DNA from: an uncultured Gammaproteobacteria bacterium
GTDB lineage: Bacteria > Pseudomonadota > Gammaproteobacteria > Arenicellales > CAJQKF01
Assembly: GCA_905478855.1 (NCBI GenBank)
Contig: CAJQKF010000062.1
Location: 1 to 64,000 of the forward strand
Length of the DNA: 64,000 bases
Direction of reading: 5' to 3'
Part shown: positions 4,834-62,621 of the stretch, piece by piece
How positions within the stretch are numbered: position 1 is the first letter of the stretch
Layout: each line of letters opens with the position of its first letter
The notes under the pieces: generated by a model
Told to the model about the DNA's origin: nothing
The model's database searches: none
Seen by the model: only the letters and a program-made list of their open reading frames with translations
Position numbers and translations under genes: made by a program

Positions 4834-6204
4834 TTGGCCACATTTAATAGCGATTCCGAAGTCAAATTACCGCCGCAAGCTCTAGAAGCTGAGCAGTCGG
4901 TGCTCGGCGGTATGTTGTTGGATAATCGTCGTTGGGACGACGTAAGTGAGATTGTTTCATCCGACGATTTTTATAGCAGGCACCATCGCAATATATTTAA
5001 GGCGATTCAAGAATTACACGAGAATCAGGACCCTGTTGATGTAGTAACAGCATCTGAATGCCTACAAAAGAATGAACAGTTGGAAGAGATTGGCGGTCTT
5101 GCTTATCTAGGTTTTCTGGCGAAAAATACACCAAGTACTGCTAATTTAGTTACCTATGCCCGTATTGTTCATGAGCGGTCACTGCTCCGAAAGCTAATTA
5201 ATCGTGCGACTGATATTGCAACTAAGGCTTATCATCCTGATGGTAGCAGTGCTAATGAGGTGTTGGACTTTGCTGAACAGACTATCTTCGAGCTGACTCA
5301 AAATAATCGACGGGATGAAGGCGGATTTGTCTCTATTCAGGGGCTATTGACTGGAGCAATCGATCGTATAGAAGAGTTGTATGAATCGGACGAGGCGCTT
5401 ACCGGTATTTCCAGTGGCTTCAAGGATCTTGATAATATGACATCGGGACTTCAACGTTCCGACTTAATTGTTGTGGCAGGGCGGCCCTCAATGGGTAAAA
5501 CGAGTTTTGCTATGAATGTGGCAGAAAATGTTGCCGTCGGTACTAAATTGCCTGTCGCGGTATTTAGTATGGAAATGCCCGGTCAGCAATTAGCGCTGAG
5601 AATGATTTCTTCACTGGGGCGTATAAATGCTCATAAGGTGCGAACGGGTAAACTTGGCACTGATGATTGGCCGCGACTTACGTCGGCAGTGGGTTTGCTA
5701 AATCAGTCCTCAATTTTTATCGATGATACGCCGGCTTTGTCTCCATTGGATCTACGATCCAGAACTCGTCGACTAATACGAGAGCATGGTAATCTAGGGC
5801 TAATTGTAATCGATTACCTACAGCTTATGCAGGCGGCAGAAAGCCAAGATAATCGAGCTATCGAAGTTTCGAATATAACCCGTGGATTGAAAATTCTGGC
5901 CAAAGAGTTACATGTCCCGGTAATGGTACTATCTCAGCTTAATAGAAGTCTGGAACAACGCCCAAACAAAAGACCCATAATGTCAGACTTGAGGGAATCT
6001 GGTGCAATTGAGCAAGATGCCGATGTAATTCTCTTCATTTACCGAGATGAAGTTTATAACGAAGATACTCAGGACAAAGGCGTTGCCGAGATTATTATAG
6101 GAAAGCAGCGAAACGGACCAACAGGCACTTGTCGACTGACTTTTCTTGGAGAATATACAAGATTCGAAAACTTTGCGTCACCGGAATTTGTTGGGGATTA
6201 CTAG
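4834..6204 (+). CDS. dnaB: Replicative DNA helicase DnaB
   Basis: Hexameric helicase that unwinds the replication fork. The N-terminal domain begins KLPPQALEAEQSVLGGMLLDN. The RecA-like domain has the Walker A motif GRPSMGKTSFAMN, the Walker B stretch LIVIDYLQLM, and the conserved VLSQLNRSLEQR and SDLRESGAIEQDAD. The open frame runs back into the preceding terminator, so a TTG at 4834 (MATFNSDSEV) is the likely start, giving 456 residues. The stop overlaps the alr start by one base. No intein is present in the Walker A region, a common insertion site in DnaB. Confidence 0.95.
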   Translation: MATFNSDSEVKLPPQALEAEQSVLGGMLLDNRRWDDVSEIVSSDDFYSRHHRNIFKAIQELHENQDPVDVVTASECLQKNEQLEEIGGLAYLGFLAKNTPSTANLVTYARIVHERSLLRKLINRATDIATKAYHPDGSSANEVLDFAEQTIFELTQNNRRDEGGFVSIQGLLTGAIDRIEELYESDEALTGISSGFKDLDNMTSGLQRSDLIVVAGRPSMGKTSFAMNVAENVAVGTKLPVAVFSMEMPGQQLALRMISSLGRINAHKVRTGKLGTDDWPRLTSAVGLLNQSSIFIDDTPALSPLDLRSRTRRLIREHGNLGLIVIDYLQLMQAAESQDNRAIEVSNITRGLKILAKELHVPVMVLSQLNRSLEQRPNKRPIMSDLRESGAIEQDADVILFIYRDEVYNEDTQDKGVAEIIIGKQRNGPTGTCRLTFLGEYTRFENFASPEFVGDY

Positions 6205-7283
6205 TGAGTGTGCGTGTCAGGTTGACTCTTGATCGCAGTGCGTTATTAACTAATGTAAGAGTTCTGCGTCAGTTTTCGACGGCTCCCGTGCTTCGTGCTG
6301 TTGTAAAGTGCGATGCCTATGGTCATGGTGCCGTAACAATAGCACGGTGGCTTGAGCCTGACGTAGAAGAGTTTGCTGTAGCAAGTGTCGATGAAGGTGT
6401 TGAATTACGCCTAGCCGGTATCACACGTCCGGTATATATATTGTCTGATTTTGATTCGCAGTTGGATGTTTCTGAGCTTGTGACGCACAATCTCTCCCCA
6501 GTAATCCATAGTTCAAAGCAGTTACATCTGGTGAAGGATGTAGTGAATCAATTACCTTCTATTGTCATAAAAATGGATACGGGTATGGGTCGACTTGGAT
6601 TTCTGCCAGAAGAATGTGGTGCAGTCTATGAACTTTTAAATCGCACTAGTGTTCTCGGTAACGTTCAAATAATGAGTCATTTTTCCTGTGCAAATGATCT
6701 GGAGAGTTGCTTTACGGAGAAGCAGTATCAGAAATTCCTTTTAGCTACAGACGAGCACGACTGCTTAAAATCGATAGCTAATTCAGCTGCATTACTAGCT
6801 TGGCCGAAAACACATTTGGATTGTGTACGTCCTGGACTTTCATTGTACGGAATATCGCCAATTCCTGATAAGGCGGGTTACGAGTATGGATTACAACCGG
6901 TCATGGGGTTAACAACACGAATTTTGACACTGAAAAATATTCCTGCCGGGCATACTGTTGGATATGGCGCAGGATGGGTAGCTTCACGGGACACAACACT
7001 TGCCGTGTTACCATGTGGTTACGGTGATGGTTATCCCCGTCACGCCCCTGGAAGTAACGTTTTTGTAAATGGTGAATTGGTACCTGTAGTTGGCCAAATC
7101 TCTATGGATTCCATGACTGTCGATGTTACGGGTAAAGAATTTTTACGGGTCGACAATGAGGTGGAGTTAGTCGGACCTAATGTTTGCATCGAATCCATCG
7201 AGAATGCCAGTGGTGTGTCATCATACGAAATACTTTGTAATCTAGGAAAACGAATTACCCGGGACGTTTATGGCTACACCTAA
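6204..7283 (+). CDS. alr: Alanine racemase
   Basis: PLP enzyme that makes D-alanine for peptidoglycan. The PLP lysine lies in AVVKCDAYGHG near the N terminus, and the second catalytic region VGYGAGW contains the family tyrosine. GYGDGYPRH and GQISMDSMTVD are further family landmarks. A GTG at 6204, overlapping the dnaB stop and preceded by TTGGGGA, is preferred over the longer in-frame start inside dnaB, giving 359 residues. The 3' end overlaps radA by 14 bases. dnaB-alr-radA probably forms one transcription unit. Confidence 0.95.
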   Translation: MSVRVRLTLDRSALLTNVRVLRQFSTAPVLRAVVKCDAYGHGAVTIARWLEPDVEEFAVASVDEGVELRLAGITRPVYILSDFDSQLDVSELVTHNLSPVIHSSKQLHLVKDVVNQLPSIVIKMDTGMGRLGFLPEECGAVYELLNRTSVLGNVQIMSHFSCANDLESCFTEKQYQKFLLATDEHDCLKSIANSAALLAWPKTHLDCVRPGLSLYGISPIPDKAGYEYGLQPVMGLTTRILTLKNIPAGHTVGYGAGWVASRDTTLAVLPCGYGDGYPRHAPGSNVFVNGELVPVVGQISMDSMTVDVTGKEFLRVDNEVELVGPNVCIESIENASGVSSYEILCNLGKRITRDVYGYT

Positions 7284-57319: not shown

Positions 57320-57793
57320 ATGCAAAAATCGCTTTTAATCGACGCAGGCAAGTGTACTGGTTGCTTGCAATGCGAAATGGCGTGTTCGTATGAGAACGAA
57401 AACGTTTTTAACCCTTCAAAATCACGTATAAAGGTATTCACATTTCATGATGAGGGGCGATTTGTTCCATATACATGTACTCAATGTGATGAAGCATGGT
57501 GCCTGCAAGCGTGTCCTGTAGATGCGATTGTAGTAAACAGCAAAACAGGTTCGAAAGATGTTCTTGAAGATGTATGTGTAGGCTGTAAGGTATGCACAAT
57601 TTCCTGCCCATTCGGCACGATTAACTATAATCAAGATTCGGGCAAAGTTATCAAGTGCGATCTGTGTGGCGGTGACCCTGCTTGCGCATCCGCATGTCCA
57701 ACAGAAGCAATAACCTATGTGGATGCAGATGCAACAGGTCTCGCGCGTATGCGTGAGTGGGCCGGTAAAACTGATAACACAGCGACAGCATAA
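57320..57793 (+). CDS. aorA: Polyferredoxin-like electron transfer subunit of aldehyde oxidoreductase (AorA-type)
   Basis: A 157-residue protein with 16 cysteines arranged for four [4Fe-4S] clusters: C12/15/18/22, C53/56/61/65, C86/89/92/96 and C113/116/122/126. This is the HycB/DmsB-like pattern seen in the AorA subunit of Aromatoleum-type aldehyde oxidoreductases, where it passes electrons between AorB and the flavoprotein. AGGAGG 12 bases before the ATG is an excellent ribosome site. It starts the cluster and lies 12 bases before aorB. No confident promoter was found in the 156-bp upstream gap. Confidence 0.9.
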   Translation: MQKSLLIDAGKCTGCLQCEMACSYENENVFNPSKSRIKVFTFHDEGRFVPYTCTQCDEAWCLQACPVDAIVVNSKTGSKDVLEDVCVGCKVCTISCPFGTINYNQDSGKVIKCDLCGGDPACASACPTEAITYVDADATGLARMREWAGKTDNTATA

Positions 57794-57805: not shown

Positions 57806-59662
57806 ATGGCTTGGACTAAAAAAGTACTGCGAGTAAATCTTACCGAGGGTACCTGTATTGGCGAACCCCTTAATATGGAGTGGGCCGATCAGTATCTTGG
57901 TCAACGTGGTTTAGCAACTCGATATATGTGTGAGGAAGTAGATCCGACATGTGATGCACTAAGTTCGGAAAATAAAATGATCATGGCTACAGGCCCTTTA
58001 ACCGGCACTATGGCATCGACTGGTGGTCGTTATTCAGTTATTTGCAAAAGTCCGTTAACGGGTGCAATAGCGTGTTCAAACTCTGGTGGATTTATTGGCG
58101 CAGAGTTAAAAAACGCCGGTTGGGATATGATTATTTTTGAGGGAAAATCGCCTGATCCTGTATATCTGCATCTTGAGAATGAAAAAGCAGAGTTACTGCC
58201 GGCTGGGGAACTTTGGGGTAAGTCGGTTTGGGAAGCAGATGAAATGCTGCATAAAATTCATCAGGATCCGCAAATGCGCATTGCCGCTGTGGGACGGGCT
58301 GCTGAAGAAGGGTGTTTATATTCTGCAATAATAAATGATTTGCATCGTGCTGCTGGGCGATCCGGTGTTGGCACGGTTATGGCTTCTAAAAACCTTAAGG
58401 CTGTGTGTGTTCGCGGTACGAGGGGTGTTGGAAATATCAAAGACCCTGCCCGATTCATGAAGTCTACCGCCGAGCAGAAACAAGTGTTGGCAGAGAATGC
58501 GGTTACCGGTCAAGGCTTACCGACATACGGTACACAAGTACTGATGAATGTTATTAACGAACTCGGTGCACTTCCTACGCGTAACATGCAGGAAGTAAAG
58601 TTTGAGGGCGCACACAATATTTCTGGTGAAGCTATGCTCGAGCCTCGAGCTTCCGATGGAAAGGCAAACTTAACCACAAATGCTGGTTGTTTTGCATGCA
58701 CCATTGCTTGTGGACGAATTTCGACTATAGATCAAACGCACTTTAGTGTTGAGAATAAGCCACAGTATTGGGGTAATTCTGGCGGCTTAGAATATGAAGC
58801 CGCATGGGCCATGGGTACAGATACAGGCGTTGATGATTTGGACGCAGTAACGTATGTAAACTTTCTCTGTAATGAGGATGGCATAGACCCAATTACGTTT
58901 GGGGCTACTGTAGCGGCTGCTATGGAAATGTTTAAAGACGGGGATTTAACTACGGAACATACGGGTGGTGTTGAACTTGAGTTTGGCAGCGCAAAAGCAC
59001 TCGCTTGGGCTGCGGAAGTAACCTGTAGAGGAGAAGGCTTTGGCCGCGATCTCGGTCTTGGTTCACGACGTTTGTGTGAAAAGTACGGGCGTCCTGAACT
59101 CTCAATGACAGTTAAATCTCAAGAGTTTCCTGCTTACGATCCACGTGGCATTCAGGGCATGGGATTGGCCTATGCAACGAGTAATCGTGGTGCGTGCCAT
59201 TTACGCGGTTACACTGTAGCATCAGAGGTTCTTGGTATTCCTGAAAAAACGGATCCACTTGTTACTGAAGGCAAGGCGGGATTGGTCAAAGCCTTTCAGG
59301 ATGCGACGGCCGCTGTTGATTCTGCCGGGTTGTGTGTTTTCACAACTTTCGCATGGTCTTTGGAAAATATTGCTCCACAAATCGATGCGGCATGTGAAGG
59401 GGATTGGAGTGTCGACAAGCTTGCTGAGATTGGCGAACGCATTTGGAATCTCGAAAGGGACTTTAATAACAAAGCCGGTATGACATCTGCAGACGATACG
59501 TTACCGCAGCGGCTACTTACCGAACCTGCAAATACAGGTCCTGCAGAGGGTAAAGTATGCGGCCTTGACGAAATGTTACCGGAATACTATGAACTTCGTG
59601 GCTGGACCACCGAAGGCGAGTTGACGGATGATGTTCGCGGGAAATTTAATTTACCGGTATAA
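57806..59662 (+). CDS. aorB: Tungsten-type aldehyde:ferredoxin oxidoreductase catalytic subunit
   Basis: Oxidises aldehydes to carboxylic acids at a bis-pyranopterin tungsten centre, and can run in reverse with strong reductants. All parts of the AOR family are present in 618 residues: the N-terminal pterin-binding domain (ATGPLTGTMASTGGRYSVIC), AAGRSGVGTVMASKNLKAV, and the [4Fe-4S] ligands C295, C298, C302 (GCFACTIACGR) and C510 (DSAGLCVFTTFAW), spaced like those of the Pyrococcus enzyme. It is not a Mo-type xanthine oxidase relative. Substrate is not evident from sequence. Confidence 0.95.
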   Translation: MAWTKKVLRVNLTEGTCIGEPLNMEWADQYLGQRGLATRYMCEEVDPTCDALSSENKMIMATGPLTGTMASTGGRYSVICKSPLTGAIACSNSGGFIGAELKNAGWDMIIFEGKSPDPVYLHLENEKAELLPAGELWGKSVWEADEMLHKIHQDPQMRIAAVGRAAEEGCLYSAIINDLHRAAGRSGVGTVMASKNLKAVCVRGTRGVGNIKDPARFMKSTAEQKQVLAENAVTGQGLPTYGTQVLMNVINELGALPTRNMQEVKFEGAHNISGEAMLEPRASDGKANLTTNAGCFACTIACGRISTIDQTHFSVENKPQYWGNSGGLEYEAAWAMGTDTGVDDLDAVTYVNFLCNEDGIDPITFGATVAAAMEMFKDGDLTTEHTGGVELEFGSAKALAWAAEVTCRGEGFGRDLGLGSRRLCEKYGRPELSMTVKSQEFPAYDPRGIQGMGLAYATSNRGACHLRGYTVASEVLGIPEKTDPLVTEGKAGLVKAFQDATAAVDSAGLCVFTTFAWSLENIAPQIDAACEGDWSVDKLAEIGERIWNLERDFNNKAGMTSADDTLPQRLLTEPANTGPAEGKVCGLDEMLPEYYELRGWTTEGELTDDVRGKFNLPV

Positions 59663-59733: not shown

Positions 59734-60996
59734 ATGCAGCATGTAATTATTGGCGCAGGTCCAGCGGGCGTAACCGCTGCAGAAGCGTTACGACGTTTAT
59801 CCCCAGACTGTGAAATTACGATCATTGGAGACGAACCTGAGCCGCCTTATTCAAGAATGGCGCTTCCATATCATTTGGTAAATCAAGTTGGCGAATCCGG
59901 TACTTATCTAAGAAAGAAAGAAAATTATTTTGATGACCAGCGTATCGACATACTTCAGGATCGTGTTTCTTCCATAGATACGGCGGCGAAGATTGTTACA
60001 TTGGAATCCGGTTCTGAGAAAGCATACGATCGTTTACTCATTGCTACGGGATCAACTGCTGTAAAACCCCCTGTTGAGGGCATCGGCTTGCCGGGTGTTC
60101 ATAATTGCTGGACTCTGGCTGATGCGCGTTCAATATTGGATCGAGCTAAACCTGGCGCAAAAGTTTTACTAATGGGTGCAGGCTTTATTGGCTGTATTAT
60201 TCTTGAAGCGTTAGCTTCGAGAAAAGTTGATTTGACGGTTGTTGAAATGGAGGATCGAATGGTTCCTCGAATGATGAATCAACGATCCGGTGGGCTTATA
60301 AAAAGCTGGTGTGAGAATAAGGGTGTTCGCGTTCTAACTTCGACCAGGGTAACGGCTATACAACAAGAATCTGATGGACGATTATCCGTTCGCTTGGGTA
60401 TGAACAATACCATTGAAGCGGATCTAGTGATTTGTGCGACGGGTGTTAAGCCTAATACAAGTTTTTTAAACGGTAGCAATATTGAAATAGACAATGGAAT
60501 TGTGGTTGATCGTCATTTACGAACCACTGCCAAAGATGTTTTTGCCGCCGGCGATGTGGCTAAAGGTCGCGATTTTTCTACCGGTAGCTATACCGTTCAA
60601 GCAATTCAACCGACCGCCGTCGATCACGGGCGTGTTGCGGCGAACAATATGGCTAGTGAACTGGAAGTGGTTCATCAGGGAAGCCTCAATATGAACGTGC
60701 TTGATACAATGGGGCTCGTTTCAGGATCGTTCGGCCATTGGGAAGGGGTTGATGGCGGAGACTCTACTGAGCTGTTCGACGGTGAACGTTATCGCTATAT
60801 CAATCTACAGTTTCGTGGTGATGTTTTGGTTGGTGCGAATACCCTCGGCCTAACTCAGCATGTTGGAGTTTTGCGAGGATTGATTCAAACTGGTTTACAT
60901 CTGGGTGATAAAGGCAAGAAAATCCTCATGAATAACCCACTGAAGCTGATGGAAGTATACTTGTCTGCAACCCAGGGAACGACGCTAAATCTTTAA
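59734..60996 (+). CDS. aorC: FAD-dependent NAD(P)H oxidoreductase subunit (AorC-type)
   Basis: A pyridine-nucleotide-disulfide-type flavoprotein of 420 residues. The FAD motif VIIGAGPAGVTAAEALRR is at the N terminus, a second Rossmann motif LLMGAGFIGCIILEAL with ...VVEMEDRMVPRM binds NAD(P)H, and VFAAGDVAKGRDF closes the FAD site. The redox-active CxxxxC of true disulfide reductases is absent, as in NADH-rubredoxin/nitrite-type relatives. ATG 59734 is preferred over a TTG 15 bases upstream. In AorABC enzymes this subunit couples aldehyde oxidation to NAD+. It ends by overlapping the MoaD-like gene by one base. Confidence 0.88.
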   Translation: MQHVIIGAGPAGVTAAEALRRLSPDCEITIIGDEPEPPYSRMALPYHLVNQVGESGTYLRKKENYFDDQRIDILQDRVSSIDTAAKIVTLESGSEKAYDRLLIATGSTAVKPPVEGIGLPGVHNCWTLADARSILDRAKPGAKVLLMGAGFIGCIILEALASRKVDLTVVEMEDRMVPRMMNQRSGGLIKSWCENKGVRVLTSTRVTAIQQESDGRLSVRLGMNNTIEADLVICATGVKPNTSFLNGSNIEIDNGIVVDRHLRTTAKDVFAAGDVAKGRDFSTGSYTVQAIQPTAVDHGRVAANNMASELEVVHQGSLNMNVLDTMGLVSGSFGHWEGVDGGDSTELFDGERYRYINLQFRGDVLVGANTLGLTQHVGVLRGLIQTGLHLGDKGKKILMNNPLKLMEVYLSATQGTTLNL

Positions 60997-61247
60997 TGCA
61001 AATACAATTCAAACTTTATGCCAGTTTGGGAGAGTATCTACCCGCTGGTGCTTTTCAAAACGCAATCGATATAGATGTCGATACAAACGTAAGTTTAAAT
61101 GGTCTTATGGATTTATACAGTGTACCTCGCGAGCTAGCACACTTGGTGCTAGTTAACGGAGTATTTCAGTGCGATGCCGATCGAAACCAGCCGATGCTAA
61201 AGGATGGCGATGTTGTCGCGATATGGCCGCCGGTTGCCGGTGGCTGA
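60996..61247 (+). CDS. MoaD/ThiS-family sulfur carrier protein
   Basis: An 83-residue beta-grasp protein ending in WPPVAGG, the C-terminal Gly-Gly that is thiocarboxylated in MoaD and ThiS. The FKLYASLGEYLP start and LVNGVFQC and DGDVVAIWPPV segments match the MoaD side of the family. It probably donates sulfur for the dithiolene of the pyranopterin cofactor used by AorB. It overlaps the aorC stop (TAATG). No MoaE is encoded in the window. Confidence 0.88.
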   Translation: MQIQFKLYASLGEYLPAGAFQNAIDIDVDTNVSLNGLMDLYSVPRELAHLVLVNGVFQCDADRNQPMLKDGDVVAIWPPVAGG

Positions 61248-61311
61248 TCAAAAATCATAAGACTGATTTACTCTACTATTAAAAAACCATTTGTTTTTAT
61301 AGATCATATAG

Positions 61312-61614
61312 ATGTTTGCTACTTCTGTTAACCAATCCTTTACAAAGGAAATGGGATACACTCATAGAGAGTTTTTTCGTAATTTACCCGTTGCTTTAAA
61401 GGACGTTCCGTACCATGTAAAGGGTGAGACGATATCGATATCTTATGAGGACGGTAAAGTCGAAATCCAACTTGGGGAAATGCAAAATCGTCAAATTGCT
61501 TCTCTATCATTACCCTATATGCAGGTAAGTTTTACTTTTTTCGATCTATCACCGGAACAACGTGAAGCGTTTTATACGCCATTTCAACGCTCTTATCAGA
61601 AAGGCGGAGGCTAA
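61312..61614 (+). CDS. Unidentified 100-residue protein in the aldehyde oxidoreductase cluster
   Basis: I do not recognise a named family. The protein has an N-terminal helix-like part (MGYTHREFFRNLPVAL), then alternating strands (ETISISYEDGKVEIQLGEM, RQIASLSLPYMQVSFTFF) and a last helix (SPEQREAFYTPFQRSY) ending in Lys-Gly-Gly-Gly. There is no signal peptide, membrane helix or cysteine. It sits between the MoaD-like and MoaA-like genes, two bases before the latter, so a role in tungsten cofactor or AorB maturation is inferred. Codon use looks like its neighbours. Confidence 0.8.
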   Translation: MFATSVNQSFTKEMGYTHREFFRNLPVALKDVPYHVKGETISISYEDGKVEIQLGEMQNRQIASLSLPYMQVSFTFFDLSPEQREAFYTPFQRSYQKGGG

Positions 61615-61616
61615 CC

Positions 61617-62621
61617 GTGATCGTAGATAAATTGGGTCGTGAAATTCACGATTTAAGAATTTCAATCACTGATCGGTGTAATTTCCGCTGTGTCTATTGT
61701 ATGCCGAAAGAAAAATTCGGGCGTGGCTATAAGTTTCTTGCTCGCAATCAACTATTAAGTTTCGAAGAGATCGAACGAACCGTGCGGTTATTTGCCAAAT
61801 TGGGCGTGCGCAAAATTCGCATTACCGGGGGCGAACCTATGCTGCGAGCAGACTTGCCAGATCTCGTTTCTCTAATTGCTTCAATTGACGGTATTGATGA
61901 TCTCAGCATGACAACTAATGCATCACTGTTGACGCCAGAGAAAGCAAAAACTCTTAGAAATGCTGGCTTAGGTCGATTAAATGTAAGTTTAGACTCTCTT
62001 AATGATGCGGATTTTGTGAGCATCAACGATGTTGGCTGCTCAGTAAGTCGAGTACTTTCAGGCATAGATGCCCTGGATTCTGCGGGGTTTAAAAACACCA
62101 AAGTAAATATGGTAGTTAGAAAAGGTACTAATGAATCTAGTATTCTTCCTATGGCTAGACATTTTTACGGTAGCGGACATATTTTACGTTTTATTGAATA
62201 TATGGATGTTGGTACAACCAACGAATGGAAGATCTCTGAGGTCGTAACTGCAACCGAGATTAAGGAAATGATTCACAGTGAAATGCCACTTGAATCATTA
62301 CAGCCAAATTATATGGGTGAAGTTGCTCGACGTTGGAAGTATGTTGATGGAGGAGGCGAAATAGGCATTATTTCGTCTGTTACACAACCATTTTGCGGTA
62401 ATTGCTCGCGTGCCCGTCTCTCCGCAGTGGGTAAGCTCTATACCTGTTTGTTCGCATCGGATGGCTTTGATATTAGAGAGTTATTACGACAAAGCATGTC
62501 GGATGCTGAGCTCTTAGAAGCCTTTGCGAAGATCTGGATGGCTCGTGATGATCGTTATTCAGAGACCCGCGGGAAAGTTCCTAACCAACAGAAAGTTGAG
62601 ATGTCGCACATTGGTGGATGA
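61617..62621 (+). CDS. moaA: MoaA-type radical SAM GTP 3',8-cyclase
   Basis: Catalyses the first step of pyranopterin synthesis, turning GTP into 3',8-cyclo-GTP for MoaC. The SAM-binding cluster ligands are C21, C25 and C28 (DRCNFRCVYCMP). The second cluster ligands are C260, C263 and C277 (PFCGNCSRARLSAVGKLYTC), and the chain ends in the MoaA-typical Gly-Gly. RKIRITGGEPMLR and LNVSLDSL also fit. GTG 61617 is preceded by GGCGGAGG. It has 334 residues. Its place in the cluster suggests dedicated or boosted cofactor supply; moaC, moaE and moeA are not in the window. Confidence 0.95.
   Translation: MIVDKLGREIHDLRISITDRCNFRCVYCMPKEKFGRGYKFLARNQLLSFEEIERTVRLFAKLGVRKIRITGGEPMLRADLPDLVSLIASIDGIDDLSMTTNASLLTPEKAKTLRNAGLGRLNVSLDSLNDADFVSINDVGCSVSRVLSGIDALDSAGFKNTKVNMVVRKGTNESSILPMARHFYGSGHILRFIEYMDVGTTNEWKISEVVTATEIKEMIHSEMPLESLQPNYMGEVARRWKYVDGGGEIGIISSVTQPFCGNCSRARLSAVGKLYTCLFASDGFDIRELLRQSMSDAELLEAFAKIWMARDDRYSETRGKVPNQQKVEMSHIGG

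Follow-up and report, generated by a model that had tools for sequence, protein, structure and literature searches.

Cofactor delivery to tungsten enzymes of the aldehyde oxidoreductase (AOR) family is poorly known, and AorABC, a three-subunit member of this family, is studied for hydrogen-driven acid reduction. Arndt et al. described two genes of the Aromatoleum aromaticum aor operon, aorD and aorE, as resembling MoaD and as putative tungsten-cofactor maturation factors whose products are absent from the purified enzyme (PMC6365974). In the work of Winiarska et al., the aorABC enzyme had a specific activity of 4.5 U/mg; with aorDE added it reached 16 U/mg, and with extra tungstate as well 85 U/mg, at W contents of 1.06, 0.39, and 1.52, respectively (PMC9295118). 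From these values we calculate an activity per W of about 4, 41, and 56, against 16 for the native enzyme; D and E were always present together in what appear to be single preparations, so this ratio of our own describes their joint effect, which suits a gain in cofactor activity rather than in metal content. A 2026 classification of tungsten oxidoreductases names a ThiS-like protein, WorX, that corresponds to aorD, and its available text discusses no protein like the one described here (PMC13328260). In Thermococcus, the two last glycines of a MoaD-like protein are needed for tungsten-enzyme function and a neighboring E1 is active on it, and the MoaD-like proteins of this genus are both sulfur carriers and modifiers (PMC11323500). 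Iyer et al. listed Thermus among the organisms with AOR-linked MoaD (PMC1779556).

The X gene and its operon

The window, a stretch of 64,000 nucleotides from an uncultured gammaproteobacterium, contains a six-gene tungsten aldehyde oxidoreductase operon in the order aorA-aorB-aorC-aorD-X-moaA, in which aorD is MoaD-like and the fifth gene, X, is our subject. The features are:

57320..57793, + strand: aorA, 4Fe-4S electron-transfer subunit (Pfam)
57806..59662, + strand: aorB, tungstopterin catalytic subunit (AFOR_N and AFOR_C, Pfam)
59734..60996, + strand: aorC, FAD/NAD subunit of AOR (Pyr_redox_2; Pfam, NCBIfam)
60996..61247, + strand: aorD, MoaD/ThiS-like beta-grasp carrier ending PPVAGG (Pfam ThiS)
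61312..61614, + strand: X, probable aorE, 100 amino acids (open reading frame, homologues, AlphaFold model, 1v8c comparison)
61603..61611, + strand: codons of the C-terminal Gly-Gly-Gly of X (GGC GGA GGC), with Lys97 just before
61617..62621, + strand: moaA, GTP 3',8-cyclase, GTG start (TIGR02666, 373.9 bits)

The X protein has 100 residues, no cysteine, and a C-terminus of ...YQKGGG, exactly as an earlier note on this DNA had described it for positions 61312–61614. Its start is fixed because an in-frame TAG stop at 61309 directly precedes the ATG, and it is a real gene because homologues of the same length, at 25–47% identity, occur in dozens of genomes. The same note had called X an orphan, which was wrong, as we collected 98 full-length homologues, though Pfam and NCBIfam do not cover them above cut-off and window X itself has no match above cut-off in either. 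A PDB sequence search with X gave chance matches only, to Spy/CpxP and S10, and a plasmid search with X as the query gave none. An Rfam search found no family close to the aor operon, and promoter and terminator scans stayed near chance level. The moaA gene begins 2 nt past the X stop codon, and moaA is often, though not always, a neighbor of X. At 61603–61617, the glycine codons of X double as GGAGG, a Shine-Dalgarno-like motif placed as the ribosome-binding site of moaA. The source genome also holds a canonical moaD-moaE pair.

Gene order and published description indicate that X is very probably AorE. Like AorE of Aromatoleum (WP_041646407), X lies behind aorABC-aorD, and AorE is a putative tungsten-cofactor maturation factor of that operon; its reported resemblance to MoaD fits the match of X to 1v8c described below, though the fold of X is not that of MoaD and AorE was compared by description. 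No Aromatoleum locus was among the matches in our locus collection. What the earlier note had put forward as a possible new maturation or insertion factor is therefore very probably known in outline already, as a named, uncharacterised operon gene. New here are its definition as a family and its invariant triglycine end on a fold predicted not to be beta-grasp; the available text of the two AorE papers (PMC6365974, PMC9295118) discusses neither an [RK]GGG tail nor a fold or DUF1952 link for this protein.

Distribution of X and linkage to AorABC

A first profile built from six X homologues, run against 369 genomes of the class with E up to 0.01, detected X in 42 of them and in 47 of the 101 genomes of one family. 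We also took 80 named loci around aorB relatives, and all loci were then searched with an iterated X profile, which returned 100 matches, of which 98 run through to their stop codon. Among the named carriers are Granulosicoccaceae, Thiolinea, Thiothrix, Sedimenticola, Noviherbaspirillum, Telmatospirillum (an alphaproteobacterium), and Candidatus Entotheonella. The X family is widespread and almost unstudied.

With AOR presence scored by PF01314 in the same 369 genomes, AOR was found in 52 and X (broad profile) in 40; both were present in 36, AOR only in 16, and X only in 4 (Fisher P 6.6e-33, which overstates the strength of the association because related genomes are not independent). The co-occurrence with aorB for which the earlier note had asked as a check is thus seen. 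In two of the X-only genomes (G477 and G595), X is interrupted by stops, the adjoining moaA is open, and there is no AOR gene; a third (G666) retains X as a 56-codon fragment, and the fourth (G694) is 78% complete, with remnants of aorC, aorD, and moaA close to X. Homologues of X were therefore not found widely without AOR, the four exceptions being two relics, a fragment, and an incomplete genome. The stop-broken relics (L150, 5009–5316, in G477; L151, 5894–6022, in G595) read as recent losses of the AOR operon.

On the other side of the comparison, a contig end cuts the operon in 9 of the 12 AOR-only genomes inspected (in G649 after a second aorD), and X is truly absent from the AOR operon in the remaining three (G638, G667, and G713). 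Of the 80 named loci, 14 have no X, mostly at contig ends; L079, L095, and L121 have aorD without X, while L074, L075, and L080 lack both. X is thus not strictly essential, as some AorABC operons do without it. Most of the 80 named loci have the order aorABC-aorD-X, as do genomes from families f28 and f5, and X, where present, nearly always comes after aorD. The aorD proteins end PPVAGG in 81 cases. Directly downstream of X, about eight loci carry a MoeB/ThiF-type E1 gene detected by Pfam ThiF (L097, L098, L100, L110, L113, L115, L117, and L122).

A second AOR in the genome from which the window comes (L155, G000:C35, 6291–8837) is accompanied by an FeS protein and a MoaD-like gene of its own (ending PPIKGG), and neither aorC nor X is present there; an Azospirillum plasmid AOR shows the same pattern, with a MoaD-like gene and no aorC or X. 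Because these AORs without aorC have no X, the gene is tied to the AorABC type and not to all AFOR proteins. The link to moaA considered in the earlier note did not hold, as most homologous loci have no moaA and, in genomes that have lost AOR, X is broken while the moaA next to it is intact; the same observations rule out X as a MoaA-specific partner. X therefore tracks the three-subunit, NAD-linked AOR and its aorD, rather than AFOR proteins generally or moaA.

Several arrangements depart from the common one. In G244, X (L013, 7855–8172, contig C40) lies apart from the AOR operon (contig C4), next to an unrelated acetyltransferase-like gene, and ends QRGGG. MoaD-like genes flank X on both sides at L051, L052, L057, and L076, and the operons at L120 (5594–5959) and L160 each have two MoaD-like genes, the first ending EEGGFGG rather than PPVAGG. 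MoeA, MobB, and a PBP-type ABC transporter recur close to AOR in some loci. Long open frames in G784, G822, and G761 gave the appearance of X fused to upstream genes, but these are merely overlapping frames; in the two of these genomes with the operon, X overlaps aorD in a different frame.

Predicted fold, distant homology, and the triglycine tail

An AlphaFold model of window X built from 66 sequences (pLDDT 87.1) has a strand, a helix, four strands, and a helix, followed by a loose tail, and a second model with the divergent member L086 leading (pLDDT 89.6) has the same elements (E-H-E-E-E-E-H). The predicted order beta-alpha-beta4-alpha is that of helix-grip/TBP-like folds and not of beta-grasp, as the earlier note had allowed; its picture of mostly beta strands with a final helix agrees with the model, which has an additional N-terminal helix. 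Like the MoaD/ThiS carriers (AorD, and WorX as described in PMC13328260), X is small, lies in Mo/W-cofactor loci, has a free C-terminal Gly-Gly, and often stands near MoeB/ThiF, but its predicted fold order differs from theirs and its glycine tail follows a helix rather than a strand. The Pfam listing for the 66 X members does not include ThiS.

When the L086 model was compared by Foldseek with 350,542 PDB chains, the best match was 1v8c_A (E 6.9e-4, probability 1.00, 24% identity); the window model matched the same structure more weakly (E 0.05). VIA alignment to residues 82–165 of 1v8c gave Z scores of 7.4 for the window model and 8.5 for L086 (rmsd 3.5, 82 residues aligned). Kinase KA1 domains and plant PR-10 proteins have geometry scores equal to or above those of 1v8c at lower identity, so fold alone cannot decide the kinship of X. 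Sequence profiles add to the fold evidence: hhalign of the X family against the 1v8c domain gave P 4.4e-5 with an alignment reaching both C-termini, and the X profile scored 9.2 bits on the Thermus domain without its tail, where the best of 500 shuffles reached 6.6 and the next 2.1. The Pfam family of that domain, PF09189 (DUF1952), matches 2 of the 66 X members (19.2 and 16.1 bits; E 0.0011 and 0.01); none of the 66 reaches its gathering cut-off of 22 bits, and window X and most others have no match.

The 1v8c chain, checked against the PDB copy, consists of a MoaD domain ending ...FPPVAGG, followed by the DUF1952 domain with the end SRGGG, and the control genome of Thermus composti is positive for both DUF1952 and AFOR. 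The C-terminal domain of 1v8c thus resembles X in fold, in its RGGG end, and in having a MoaD partner, which is fused in Thermus and encoded by the neighboring gene here; in proteobacteria X is a separate gene. X is a distant homologue of the DUF1952 domain, rather than a filed Pfam member, with a predicted helix-grip fold of a kind that is itself common. CoxG and other helix-grip proteins (SRPBCC/KA1-like) share the overall fold, and CoxG serves a molybdopterin enzyme, but they are only about 7–13% identical to X, are larger, and have no glycine tail that we noted; the fold is widespread, and with Z of about 8 at low identity and no Pfam match above cut-off, we take this as fold similarity and claim no membership. 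The predicted structure did not match an unrelated enzyme family. A search of the X model against a viral fold library gave nothing at E < 0.001, and a plasmid search with the Thermus fusion matched its MoaD parts only.

Conservation in X is highest in the tail. Among the 98 complete homologues, 70 end RGGG, 27 KGGG, and one RGGS, so the glycine tail on which the earlier note had dwelt is conserved as [RK]GGG in 97 of 98; among 14,499 stop-terminated open reading frames of the fetched loci, 97 have this end, and all belong to the X family, a pattern far outside what chance would give. Outside the tail, conservation is concentrated at Arg60 (95%), Pro68 (95%), Phe87 (92%), Phe91 (98%), and Met14 (89%) and is otherwise modest, and besides Arg60 few polar positions are conserved. 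The glycine codons might have been kept as a ribosome-binding site for the downstream gene, with the protein tail incidental, as in the window GGCGGAGG stands a few nucleotides ahead of the moaA GTG. However, the 94 distinct homologues spell Gly-Gly-Gly with 40 codon combinations and 93 of them keep it, while a Shine-Dalgarno-like motif is present in 19, a downstream start in range in 24, and both in 9, and moaA is absent downstream of X in most loci. The varied spelling and the few such motifs place the constraint on the protein end and rule out a ribosome-binding-site origin, to which we assign next to no probability. Two loci carry additional copies: a tandem pair of X genes behind aorD ends HRGGG and KGGG (L148, G726, 5932–6558), and a second X copy, with no AOR genes on its stretch of contig, has a tail drifted to KGLG (L149, G404:C160, 3360–4205, minus strand).

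Proposed role and alternative explanations

There is good support for X as a partner of aorD that is dedicated to AOR. X is tied to aorB, aorC, and aorD, and a part in AOR cofactor maturation, as the earlier note had suggested, is the best reading; we think it likely that X is a tungsten-cofactor maturation partner of AorD dedicated to AorABC, with its C-terminus as the working end. X would be a one-domain protein of helix-grip type, equivalent, as a protein of its own, to the domain that follows MoaD in the Thermus fusion, and would act with the adjacent sulfur carrier AorD while the bis-pyranopterin tungsten cofactor is made or loaded. Its flexible [RK]-Gly-Gly-Gly-COOH end may enter the active site of a cofactor-assembly partner, which could be a MoeB/ThiF-type E1, MPT synthase, or AorB. 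An end so exact, with no extension, points to use or recognition of the terminal carboxylate.

How the tail might act is less certain. We lean, tentatively and at less than even odds, toward its being chemically activated at that site as an acyl-adenylate or thiocarboxylate, which would make X a second tail carrier beside AorD, over non-covalent insertion or docking. The adjacency of MoeB/ThiF makes activation possible, but it cannot identify the substrate because aorD is also present and also ends GG, and the substrate could be AorD alone. The known E1 substrates of this pathway are beta-grasp proteins, which X is not, and the window is without a dedicated E1; still, the substrate that the E1-like enzyme MccB adenylates is a short peptide, so E1-type activation does not strictly require a beta-grasp fold. 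The more specific proposal, that X is an E1-activated GGG carrier on a helix-grip scaffold and that AOR is served by two GG-tailed carriers, side by side here and fused in Thermus, we hold to be rather unlikely. X may instead be a docking or insertion factor, like the system-specific chaperones of molybdoenzymes, whose tail, without being activated, reaches into the AorB cofactor tunnel or an AorD/MPT-synthase complex. This is a real possibility, though one we would not bet on: it accords with the strict linkage to AOR, with a fold that is not beta-grasp, and with the helix-grip proteins that include CoxG, which is accessory to Mo-CO dehydrogenase (the fold matches include 8uds and 2ns9), and the rise in activity per W with aorDE, by our own ratio from the values given in PMC9295118, suits an insertion or activation step, but 97 of 98 exact ends without extension suggest that the carboxylate matters beyond the needs of a plain plug.

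Two further roles appear improbable. The [RK]GGG end resembles ubiquitin-type tails, and X might be a ubiquitin-like modifier conjugated through it to lysine residues in AOR or in cofactor enzymes, much as the Thermococcus MoaD-like proteins act both as carriers and as modifiers (PMC11323500); against this, the fold is not beta-grasp, and E2, E3, and JAMM genes were not noticed among the recurrent neighbors of X. Little probability also attaches to X as a MoaE-like partner or scaffold for AorD in which the tail has a minor, structural part, for although X adjoins or is fused to MoaD domains as MoaE does, the genome already has its canonical moaD-moaE pair, and in X the tail is most conserved and polar residues besides Arg60 are seldom so.

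An unclassified family is now tied to AorABC, with a predicted fold and a solved structural relative in 1v8c, and its invariant C-terminal triglycine stands out as one testable element. If the tail of X is activated, X would be a Gly-Gly carrier outside the beta-grasp proteins, an exception to the rule.
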